From a virus, in the IMG/VR virus record IMGVR_UViG_3300001798_000012, positions 1-39,710 of that record: 39,710 bases of DNA; one strand, 5' to 3'. Under the pieces are notes generated by a model, which was given only the letters and a program-made list of their open reading frames with translations, did no database searches and was not told the origin of the DNA. Shown here piece by piece: positions 762 to 4,982 of the stretch. Every line of letters starts with the position of its first letter. Positions within the stretch are counted from its first letter, which is position 1. A program made the translations under genes and the position numbers.

Positions 762-971
762 ATGGACTACCAAAAGAAAGTGGATCAAATGAAATGTTTG
801 ATCATGGACTTGAAGATTGTGGAGAAGTATCTGGTAACTGACGAAGACGATGTCTCTGTAAAGATGGCTAGTGTTCGAAAGTGGATGCTGATTTGGGAAA
901 AGATCTTCGAGTCTAACGACGCAAAAGAAAAAACGAGGGAATTGGGAAATGAGAACATCAGAGAATATTAA
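762..971 (+). CDS. Hypothetical early protein (69 aa)
   Basis: First gene of the rightward early operon. I place the start at ATG 762; a GTG at 753 is in frame. The product is charged and helical (MDYQKKVDQMKCLIMDLKIVEK then acidic TDEDDVS) with no recognised domain. It overlaps the start of the ERF gene by 23 nt, implying translational coupling, so it may be a cofactor of the recombination module. No function is claimed. Confidence 0.6.
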   Translation: MDYQKKVDQMKCLIMDLKIVEKYLVTDEDDVSVKMASVRKWMLIWEKIFESNDAKEKTRELGNENIREY

Positions 972-1623
972 TGAGTTAGCTAAGGCAATGGCCGTAGCTC
1001 AAGGTGAGATGAAACCCGCTGTGGAATCTGCCAAGAATACGCACTTTAAAAAGTCGTACAGCACGATCAATGACATCATAGATTGCACTAGAGAGCCTCT
1101 CAGCAAAAACGGTCTCTCTGTTTGGCAAAACGTAACCGTTGACCAGCATGGGGTAAGTATCACAACAAGAGTTGCGCATGAAAGCGGCCAGTGGATGGAG
1201 TTTGGCCCTTTATCAATGCCATTGGCTACTCCAACCCCTCAATCAATAGGCTCTGTAATCACCTATGGCAAGCGTTATGCTCTATGCGCAGCTTTAGGAG
1301 TTTCTACCGGCGAAAAAGATGATGACGCAGAAGAAGCTGAGCAGCCTTTTAGAGCACAACAGGCGGCTAAGAGCTCTGCTAAACCTCAAGAGGAAGCTAA
1401 AGTTTTGATGATCTCTGCGATTCAGGCTAATACCCTAGAATCCATGGTCAGAAAGGATGATTCTGAATATCTAAAGAGATTGCTGATCCATTTCAAGATC
1501 CCCTCTTTTAGAGAACTGCCAGCCGATAAGTACGAATCGGCTAGGGTTGCTATCGAGAAGCATAATAGGGCTCTGGTTGAAGAAGAGATGGCTAAGAAGC
1601 CAGAAGAAGAATTGCCATTTTAA
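949..1623 (+). CDS. erf: ERF-family single-strand annealing protein (224 aa)
   Basis: Single-strand DNA annealing recombinase of the ERF superfamily (P22 Erf type). The N-terminal half carries the family signature: INELAKAMAVAQGEM, then KNTHFKKSYSTINDII, then the conserved SIGSVITYGKRYAL followed by an acidic stretch. A linker near residues 130-150 leads to a helical C-terminal domain ending in EEELPF. That tail resembles the acidic DDDIPF tip of bacterial SSB. It pairs with the YqaJ-type exonuclease in the same operon: the exonuclease resects and ERF anneals the exposed strands for repair, concatemer formation or circularisation. It overlaps the preceding gene; GAGGGA lies upstream of the ATG. 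Confidence 0.9.
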   Translation: MRTSENINELAKAMAVAQGEMKPAVESAKNTHFKKSYSTINDIIDCTREPLSKNGLSVWQNVTVDQHGVSITTRVAHESGQWMEFGPLSMPLATPTPQSIGSVITYGKRYALCAALGVSTGEKDDDAEEAEQPFRAQQAAKSSAKPQEEAKVLMISAIQANTLESMVRKDDSEYLKRLLIHFKIPSFRELPADKYESARVAIEKHNRALVEEEMAKKPEEELPF

Positions 1624-1990: not shown

Positions 1991-2281
1991 ATGGAAAATT
2001 TACCTTACGTGATTATTAGAACCTATTCCGCTGGCGTATTTGCTGGAAACCTGAAATCCAGAAAAGACAAAGAGGTGGAGCTTTTGAATGCTAGGAGAAT
2101 TTGGTATTGGGAGGGTGCTGCGTCTTTGAGTCAGTTGGCTCAAGAGGGGACATCTAAGCCAAACGAGTGCAAATTCCCTTGCGAGGTAGACCGCATCATA
2201 CTTACTGAGGCGGTAGAGATTATCGATTGTACCGAAAAATCTGAAAAATCTATTAAGTCGGTTCCTGTATGGAAGGCTTAA
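1991..2281 (+). CDS. DUF6948 protein (96 aa)
   Basis: A strong ribosome binding site (AAAGGAG) precedes ATG 1991. The sequence matches what I know of the DUF6948 family: YVIIRTYSAGVFAGNL, then RRIWYWEGAASLSQLAQEG, then PCEVDRIILTEAVEIIDCT and a final VPVWKA. Function unknown; it is frequent in phage early operons. As I recall, relatives often continue into a Gly/Ser/Tyr-rich tail. Here the gene stops at TAA 2279-2281 just as the NNGGCT repeat begins, and exactly such a tail is encoded one frame back (2269-2544). Either a frameshift truncated the protein or a -1 shift extends some of it. Confidence 0.8.
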   Translation: MENLPYVIIRTYSAGVFAGNLKSRKDKEVELLNARRIWYWEGAASLSQLAQEGTSKPNECKFPCEVDRIILTEAVEIIDCTEKSEKSIKSVPVWKA

Positions 2282-2544
2282 TCTCTGGCTCTGGCTCTGG
2301 CTATGGCTATGGCTATGGCTCTGGCTCTGGCTATGGCTGTGGCTCTGGCTATGGCTATGGCTATGGCTCTGGCTATGGCTCTGGCTATGGCTATGGCTAT
2401 GGCTATGGCTGTGGCTATGGCTATGGCTATGGCTGTGGATATGGCTATGGCTATGGCTATGGCGATGGCTCTGGCTCTGGCGATGGCTATGGCTATGGCT
2501 CTGGATCTGCCTATGGCTCTGGCTCTGGCTCATGCGATGGCTAA
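2269..2544 (+). CDS. Gly/Ser/Tyr-repeat frame (possible DUF6948 tail)
   Basis: Open frame, -1 relative to the DUF6948 gene, that reads the microsatellite as alternating Gly with Ser, Tyr, Asp or Cys. It has an ATG at 2269 inside the last codons of DUF6948, and its TAA (2542-2544) overlaps the exonuclease ATG at 2537 in an ATGGCTAA arrangement. That stop-over-start placement is typical of translational coupling and argues that this frame is, or recently was, translated. It may be an independent low-complexity peptide, the frameshifted C-terminal tail of DUF6948, or a decayed tail. No ribosome binding site of note precedes 2269. Confidence 0.45.
   Translation: MEGLISGSGSGYGYGYGSGSGYGCGSGYGYGYGSGYGSGYGYGYGYGCGYGYGYGCGYGYGYGYGDGSGSGDGYGYGSGSAYGSGSGSCDG
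2281..2540 (+). repeat. NNGGCT hexamer microsatellite
   Basis: About 43 imperfect hexamers, mostly CTGGCT and ATGGCT with some GTGGCT, run without interruption between the DUF6948 stop and the exonuclease start. All three forward frames stay open: Gly-Ser/Gly-Tyr, Leu-Ala/Met-Ala and Trp-Leu/Trp-Tyr. Because the unit is 6 bp, copy-number change would not shift frame. The ATG-containing units are in frame with the exonuclease, so they offer many alternative in-frame starts and N-terminal Met-Ala extensions. Confidence 0.95.
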
Positions 2545-3112
2545 GATCATCGACTTGCAGCAAAATACACCCGAGTGGCACGAATGGAGACATTACAAGA
2601 TAGGGGGTAGTGATTCTGCCTCCTGTTGCGGGATGAACAAGTTTTGCACTCCATTACAGCTCTACCACAGAACATTGGAGAAGCAAGAGAGATTGATTAC
2701 CCCAAGAATGGCTAGAGGTTCTGCTCTTGAGCAGAAAGCAAGGGAGTGGGTAGCTAAAGAAACAGGAACGGTATATGAGCCTATATGCATGGAACACGAG
2801 GAGATTGATTATATGATCGCGAGCTTAGATGGTTGGAATGCAGAAGCGCCAATCAAGATGATCGAAATCAAGTGCACTAACGAGTTTAACCACAACTTGG
2901 CTAAACAAGGTGAAGTGCCAGCCTATTATTATCCTCAATGCCAACACAATATGGTTGTCAGCGATATAGATTCCATGTTCTACGTTTCTTTCGATGGAGA
3001 GAATGGGGTCATCGTGCATGTGCATAGAGATGAAAAGTTTGTTAAGTTCATGCTCGAAGCTGAGAAAAAGTTTTACAAATGTTTAGTGGATTTGATTCCA
3101 CCTGAAGGATAG
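2537..3112 (+). CDS. YqaJ/lambda-type recombination exonuclease (191 aa)
   Basis: PD-(D/E)XK exonuclease of the YqaJ viral recombinase family. From MAKIIDLQQ (ATG 2537): the family's N-terminal EWHEWR and GGSDSASCCG motifs, RGSALEQKARE around residues 60-70, then the catalytic ASLDGW (D98) and MIEIKC (E110, K112). Length 191 is normal for the family. I choose 2537 because homology begins here; the frame is also open back through the repeat (Met-Ala-rich), which is unlikely to be needed. No ribosome binding site precedes 2537, so initiation probably depends on ribosomes ending at 2544. It would resect DNA for the ERF protein. Confidence 0.9.
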   Translation: MAKIIDLQQNTPEWHEWRHYKIGGSDSASCCGMNKFCTPLQLYHRTLEKQERLITPRMARGSALEQKAREWVAKETGTVYEPICMEHEEIDYMIASLDGWNAEAPIKMIEIKCTNEFNHNLAKQGEVPAYYYPQCQHNMVVSDIDSMFYVSFDGENGVIVHVHRDEKFVKFMLEAEKKFYKCLVDLIPPEG

Positions 3113-3890: not shown

Positions 3891-4982
3891 ATGGAAACAC
3901 GAACCATATGTTGCAAGCTTCTTACAACGCCCACTATTGCAGACGCTCTTAAAGAAACAAGCGAGCGTTTTTCTGATGCGTGCAACCATATTCTTAAAAG
4001 AGCTATCGAAGAGAAAACGCACAATGCTATTAAACTGCATAAGCTTTGCTATGCAGAAGTTCGTGAATTGTTTGGCCTTTCGGCTAATCTTTCTGTCAGA
4101 GCAATCCGCCGTGTTGTCTCTTGCATGACAAAATTGAAAGGGAAGCGCAAACAGCCTAAAAAATTTAGCCCAAAAAGCATTGATTACGATGCTCGTATTT
4201 TTACTTACCAAGAACAAGACGAAACAGTTTCTTTGACTACAACGAAAGGAAGAATCCGCGTTCCTATGATTCTTGGTGAACATCAACGAAAGTCTCTCAA
4301 AGGACAAAATCCCACTTCCGCAACCGTTATTAAGAAGGGAGAGGATTGGTATATCCATATAGTTGTTGAGTTTAGTGCTGTCCCCATTGATGGAAACGGA
4401 GTAATCGGTATTGATCTTGGAATTAACAACATTGCCACTACTTCTACAGGGTTTCAGGTGGAGGGAAAAGCACGGCAAGATTTTAAAAAAAAGAGAGCTA
4501 GAGTGCGAGCCAGTTTGCAATCTAAAGGAAAGCAAAGCACTAAAAAAGTTCTTAAAAAACTTTCGGGTTACGAAAACCGAAGAATTAAACACGAAAACCA
4601 TGTTCTTTCTAGACAGCTTGTTGAGGAAGCCAAAAGGCACAATTACGGAATCATCCGCATGGAACAGCTTAAGGATATTCGAATCAAGACAAAGACATGG
4701 AACAAACATCTTAACCGCATGGTGGCAGGATGGAGTTTTTACCAGTTGCAACAATTTGTAGAATACAAGGCTGCTGCGTATGGTATTGCTGTCGAATTTG
4801 TTAATCCTGCATATACAAGTCAAACTTGTCACCATTGTTTAAAGTTAGGCTCTCGTAATGGAGAGCGTTTTAACTGTTTAACCTGTGGCGAAGAGCATGC
4901 CGATGTCAACGCATCGCATGTGATCGCCTTAGGCGGGGCTGCCTGTAAACCAGCCCGAATTAGCATCCGAAAGGATAGTTAA
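3891..4982 (+). CDS. tnpB: TnpB, RNA-guided nuclease of IS200/IS605 (363 aa)
   Basis: RuvC-like nuclease, the Cas12 ancestor family. The catalytic triad appears intact: D175 in GIDLGINNIAT, E258 in IIRMEQLKDIR, D338 in HADVNAS. A zinc finger is formed by CHHC (313-316) and CLTC (329-332). The N-terminal domain (CKLLTTP ... ERFSDACNHIL) is typical. Length is slightly short of the usual 370-410. Known family members use a guide RNA from the element's right end to cut the donor-free target and keep the element in the population. No tnpA partner is present. Confidence 0.92.
   Translation: METRTICCKLLTTPTIADALKETSERFSDACNHILKRAIEEKTHNAIKLHKLCYAEVRELFGLSANLSVRAIRRVVSCMTKLKGKRKQPKKFSPKSIDYDARIFTYQEQDETVSLTTTKGRIRVPMILGEHQRKSLKGQNPTSATVIKKGEDWYIHIVVEFSAVPIDGNGVIGIDLGINNIATTSTGFQVEGKARQDFKKKRARVRASLQSKGKQSTKKVLKKLSGYENRRIKHENHVLSRQLVEEAKRHNYGIIRMEQLKDIRIKTKTWNKHLNRMVAGWSFYQLQQFVEYKAAAYGIAVEFVNPAYTSQTCHHCLKLGSRNGERFNCLTCGEEHADVNASHVIALGGAACKPARISIRKDS

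Follow-up and report, generated by a model that had tools for sequence, protein, structure and literature searches.

An embedded start codon and a hexanucleotide repeat define a candidate second gene downstream of phage DUF6948

Does a glycine-rich reading frame that begins inside one phage gene and ends over the start of the next represent a gene of its own, or is it the broken tail of its upstream neighbor? The question is raised by a viral stretch of 39,710 nt (IMG/VR record IMGVR_UViG_3300001798_000012), here called the window. Since portal and terminase genes are also present, we assign the window to a tailed phage; a search of a phage collection for a close relative of the whole stretch gave none beyond 16% coverage. 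The upstream gene (1991-2281, plus strand, 96 aa) is preceded by the strong Shine-Dalgarno sequence AAAGGAG and encodes a member of DUF6948 (Pfam PF22253, E 5.3e-33, 113.5 bits against a cut-off of 27). Its product ends with VPVWKA, followed by the TAA stop codon at 2279-2281. Just 3' of this stop, at 2286-2543 on the same strand, lies a tandem array of the hexanucleotide GGCTNT, identified with TRF and by codon tally (period 6, 43 copies, 85% matches, score 346); its TRF score is the second highest in the window, behind a 180-bp array.

Through the array runs a frame of 91 aa (2269-2544, plus strand) that overlaps DUF6948 by 13 nt, is in the -1 frame relative to it, and reads MEGLISGSGSGYGYG...SCDG*. 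We refer to it as Gly-X. Its ATG (2269-2271) consists of the wobble base of a GTA valine codon and the TG of a conserved TGG tryptophan codon, whereas its TAA (2542-2544) overlaps the ATG (2537-2539) of an exonuclease gene. The overlap sequence ATGGCTAA (2537-2544, plus strand) corresponds to a spacing of -8 nt. An earlier note had described the DUF6948 stop, the Gly-Ser/Tyr frame and the overlap with the exonuclease ATG correctly, and had considered a lost or shifted DUF6948 tail, frameshifting and an internal start at 2269. The GGCTNT repeat is free of stops in all three forward frames, which read Gly-X, Met/Leu-Ala and Leu-Trp, so the open -1 frame by itself proves nothing.

The exonuclease (2537-3112, plus strand, 191 aa) is a recombination enzyme of the YqaJ/lambda-exonuclease family, matching PF09588 (E 1.8e-23, 83.9 bits against a cut-off of 22), phrog_434 (E 1.9e-43) and TIGR03033 (E 2.5e-36, 125.1 bits against a cut-off of 68). 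The N-terminus was placed at 2537, since alignments with Bacillus phage homologs begin at the first residue of that start. The longer ORF of 269 aa from 2303, with its spurious N-terminal extension MAMAMALALA... (2303-2536, plus strand), is an artefact of a repeat that has no stops in any forward frame. The exonuclease and DUF6948 share one reading frame; neither this nor the openness of the repeat in three frames had been remarked on in the earlier note. Two genes upstream of the DUF6948/Gly-X region, in the same early recombination block, lies a gene for an ERF single-strand annealing protein (949-1623, plus strand, PF04404, E 8.5e-25). Directly 3' of the early block, at 3891-4982, the window contains a TnpB/OrfB-like transposase of the IS605 family with a Cas12f1-like TNB domain.

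To compare the locus with its relatives, homologs were recruited by DUF6948 homology alone, which yielded 157 distinct junctions whose downstream sequence was long enough for analysis. In 146 of them DUF6948 is followed directly by a Gly-X ORF, a layout far beyond chance. Relative to DUF6948, 139 of these ORFs were in the -1 frame, six in +1 and one in frame. At least two of the 11 junctions that lack a scored Gly-X ORF (L202 and L285) show the repeat by eye. These counts derive from contigs that are not fully independent, and they hold at lower identity cut-offs. The reverse search was a DNA scan with the repeat pattern only. Of 63 testable arrays, 48 had DUF6948 as their immediate upstream neighbor; the other 15 were mostly monotonous GS, GA or GD repeats, or were located near a more distant DUF6948 match. 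The agreement of the DUF6948-first and repeat-first searches argues for an old, conserved two-gene arrangement and not for a recent frameshift. As judged from these homologs, DUF6948 together with a low-complexity Gly-(Ser/Tyr/Asp) protein encoded by a hexanucleotide repeat is a conserved phage two-gene module.

Among 232 genomes of the host phylum, DUF6948 was found only in the window's own assembly, which fits a phage gene. The pair is annotated as two overlapping coding sequences in MW202898 and in Pectobacterium phage Sabo. Annotation can also miss the Gly-X gene, which is present and unannotated in Iodobacter phage PhiPLPE (L325), or call the wrong frame, as in Chlorobiaceae phage CV-1-33 (L326), where gene25 is annotated in the MAMALA frame. 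In the open-access literature that was searched, no paper named DUF6948 and nothing relevant on glycine-rich or repeat proteins of phages was found. Many viral contigs (e.g., L246, L249 and L292) end within a few hundred bases 3' of DUF6948, a pattern that assembly breaks at the repeat would produce. A single PHROG profile, phrog_18306, matches DUF6948 over 156-239 and the Gly-X stretch over 57-135, which hints that fusions in the opposite order may exist.

The start of Gly-X was examined across the same junctions. An ATG or GTG could be assigned for 143 of the 146 ORFs, nearly always at most 16 nt from the DUF6948 stop. The start was at -10 relative to this stop in 117 cases and otherwise at -16, -14, -13, -8, -5, -1 or +4, later positions being rare. 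Coupled overlapping pairs require a conserved start of the second gene at or near the stop of the first, and this is what we find for DUF6948 and Gly-X. The -10 start has the form N+TG+G, in which N is supplied by the wobble base 5' of the conserved C-terminal tryptophan codon. This base is A in 153 of 177 loci, against 60 expected from codon usage (z 15.9), and lowering the identity cut-off leaves the bias in place. When isoleucine precedes the last tryptophan its codon is ATA in 40 of 42 cases, while isoleucine 5' of an internal control tryptophan (RIW) is encoded by ATA in only 13 of 72. For the small number of loci with a pyrimidine at the wobble position, the start was found elsewhere (L015, L016, L035, L321), the Gly-X ORF was undetected (L006, L228, L258, L288), or the ORF was found and no ATG or GTG start was assigned (L197, L316). 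A single wobble base decides whether the Gly-X start codon exists, which makes these junctions a natural system for testing embedded starts.

Selection was also apparent from a Shine-Dalgarno signal hidden in the DUF6948 codons just 5' of the start: their anti-SD energy was -4.64 kcal/mol, whereas synonymous resamples gave -2.88 kcal/mol (n = 148, combined Z -10.2). The window's own signal for Gly-X is weak (-2.5 kcal/mol), which suggests that in this phage ribosomes more likely re-initiate after DUF6948. Two points count against the embedded start: this weak signal and the reported loss of coupling as overlaps grow longer (PMC12548453). The conserved embedded start, together with the selection on start codon and Shine-Dalgarno sequence, supports the internal start at 2269. 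We conclude, with a probability of about 0.88, that 2269-2544 is an independently initiated gene whose start is embedded in DUF6948, and not a broken tail.

Could the repeat instead be a selfish or neutral microsatellite, tolerated for its lack of stops, with a Gly-X frame that encodes no protein of consequence? Its openness in all three forward frames agrees with this, as does the variation in copy number: relatives with 90-96% flank identity differ in repeat length by 30 to 132 nt, always in multiples of 6, although contig assembly may misstate the length of a repeat. On the other hand, the composition of the repeat indicates constraint. Most units in the 176 loci compared have Ser, Tyr or Asp at X, and variation is concentrated at positions 1 and 2 of the X codon (0.44 and 0.50), the wobble positions contributing only 0.10 each. 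Codons with T or G followed by A or C specify Tyr, Ser, Asp and Ala, and independence of the two positions would on this basis give 479 alanines; only 41 were observed (permutation sd 13). Avoidance of an amino acid that is accessible in one step points to constraint at the amino-acid level. The Gly-X frame therefore appears to be translated in the homologs, as the earlier note had supposed for the window.

Further evidence against a neutral repeat comes from members in Bacteroidales and Clostridia bins, where the Gly-X stretch runs on in the same frame into a conserved C-terminal domain, WHHxLTGSCxxGR (L118:3278-3748 on the minus strand, L034:2139-2615, and 16 others in alignment A2). This domain is predicted to be folded (pLDDT 93.5); no Pfam family matched it above cut-off, and no PDB fold matched better than E 0.36. 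With the selected start codon and Shine-Dalgarno signal and an association with DUF6948 that holds in both search directions, a neutral microsatellite is improbable. In locus L165, on the minus strand, a Gly-X ORF is fused to a different C-terminal domain (AWTAYHYVRR...LHASLSPEDARKY), which suggests that the C-terminal part of Gly-X proteins is exchangeable. Several tandem Gly-X ORFs follow DUF6948 in L002, L005, L007 and L009, each beginning with a copy of the junction motif (MES, VES, MEN or MDR), as if the start region had been duplicated with the repeat.

A second alternative assigns the repeat mainly to the exonuclease, as a translational delivery track whose copy number tunes the yield of the enzyme. 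The exonuclease indeed has no Shine-Dalgarno signal (anti-SD duplex -1.5 kcal/mol), in agreement with the earlier note, and the -8 nt overlap with the Gly-X stop is one of three spacings enriched among overlapping prokaryotic gene pairs (PMC12548453). Similar overlaps with other genes occur elsewhere: in L295 the Gly-X stop and the start of a DUF669 gene share the same ATGGCTAA, and L089 has a comparable overlap, ATGGATAA. In view of the -8 nt spacing, the missing Shine-Dalgarno signal and these similar overlaps, exonuclease translation is plausibly coupled to the Gly-X gene in the window phage, and that part of the earlier proposal stands.

A conserved partnership of the module with the exonuclease was considered and rejected, since a scan of 67 downstream genes detected YqaJ 3' of the module in the window alone; the adjacency on which the earlier proposal built is not conserved. 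The genes at this position vary (RecT, AAA, integrase, SSB, DUF669, sliding clamp and others), often have their own start and Shine-Dalgarno signal, and include recombination and replication genes; early genes of both kinds are also numerous in the wider neighborhood. Moreover, copy-number changes in multiples of 6 nt leave both junctions untouched, which speaks against a tuning of exonuclease yield by the repeat. A role mainly as delivery track is, in our judgement, slightly less probable still than a neutral repeat.

Under programmed -1 ribosomal frameshifting, ribosomes would slip near the DUF6948 stop and make a DUF6948 protein with a Gly/Ser/Tyr tail. The preponderance of the -1 frame among the Gly-X ORFs (139 of 146) is compatible with such a mechanism, as is a -1 frame that already lies open upstream of the DUF6948 stop. 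However, programmed frameshifting needs a constant frame relation, whereas the homologs use several frames, including +1 at six unique junctions, and several start positions, some of them 3' of the stop (L015, +4). A slippery heptamer XXXYYYZ is present in the permitted stretch of only 14 of the 174 loci with the -1 frame, and the window's own permitted stretch, TCGGTTCCTGTATGGAAGGCT, contains none. Codon choice in DUF6948 builds an ATG and a Shine-Dalgarno signal, neither of which frameshifting requires, and a pyrimidine at the wobble position is accompanied by a displaced start or an undetected ORF in the loci listed above. These observations argue for initiation at the embedded start, and frameshifting is very unlikely. 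Least credible, and close to negligible, is a recent frameshift mutation that severed an ancestral in-frame Gly-rich tail: the window stop does precede a long out-of-frame Gly-rich stretch, but the same layout is shared by homologs from very diverse host bins, no single ORF in the fetched loci joins a DUF6948 domain to a Gly-X run, and even the two same-frame cases of the full set (L152, L233) are separate ORFs 3' of the DUF6948 stop.

With an independently initiated Gly-X gene as the preferred reading, the nature of its partner becomes relevant. An AlphaFold model of DUF6948 (pLDDT 96.4) was compared with known structures. In a structural second look the best 50 rows were all Sm/LSm chains, with Z values of 6.3-7.2, all below 8 and in a range where common arrangements also score; the best Foldseek E value was 2.9e-3. 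Among solved structures no sequence relative of DUF6948 was found, and two of the best 50 viral matches are named Sm-like. The predicted fold is suggestive, though not proof, of an Sm-like protein with its bent barrel of five strands.

We propose that both proteins are read from one mRNA, because the Gly-X start, with a Shine-Dalgarno-like stretch in most members, sits inside the last DUF6948 codons. Ribosomes would either terminate at the DUF6948 stop and then re-initiate on Gly-X, or start directly at the embedded site, and in the window phage those leaving the Gly-X stop may re-initiate at the overlapping exonuclease ATG. The two proteins may act together: a ring-forming Sm-like protein and a disordered or sheet-forming glycine-repeat partner could build a nucleic-acid-associated assembly early in infection. 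This functional model is tentative, and we would sooner expect it to need revision than to hold as it stands. Equally speculative is its extension to a widespread, undescribed system of phage early regions, in which an Sm-like ring protein is obligately paired, via the embedded start, with a Gly-(Ser/Tyr/Asp) protein of variable length; during recombination and replication this partner would give rise to a nucleic-acid-associated assembly or condensate. The seemingly broken gene tail proves to be a second gene, conserved in diverse phage sequences that number well over a hundred. It draws attention to an unstudied partnership between an Sm-like protein and a low-complexity protein that a microsatellite encodes, and the cultured carriers, Pectobacterium phage Sabo, Iodobacter phage PhiPLPE and Chlorobiaceae phage CV-1-33, make the pair testable.

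The module can be compared to several known systems. The upstream gene of the window is a clear member of PF22253, an uncharacterized family for whose consistent Gly-X partner the open-access literature searched offered no description to compare. The Sm/LSm proteins, including 3by7, an Sm-like protein from an uncultured source, resemble DUF6948 in predicted fold; unlike them, DUF6948 has no detectable sequence relation to the group, and the likeness is that of a predicted model at Z of about 7. Silk fibroin is an alternating-glycine low-complexity protein with GAGAGS and GAGAGY blocks. It shares with Gly-X a glycine at every second residue and small, aromatic or polar residues in between, whereas the phage proteins are short, have Ser, Tyr or Asp at X and strongly avoid Ala. 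Finally, among gene pairs translated by termination-reinitiation (Huber et al., 2023, PMC10666635; Brown and Wade, 2025, PMC12548453), overlaps are usually 1, 4 or 8 nt, while that of DUF6948 and Gly-X is mostly 13 nt and its start uses a conserved Trp codon. The likeness, drawn here from sequence, lies in stop and start codons that overlap on the same strand, the Gly-X/exonuclease overlap being of the enriched -8 nt type, and such short-overlap pairs often encode subunits of one complex (PMC10666635; PMC12548453).
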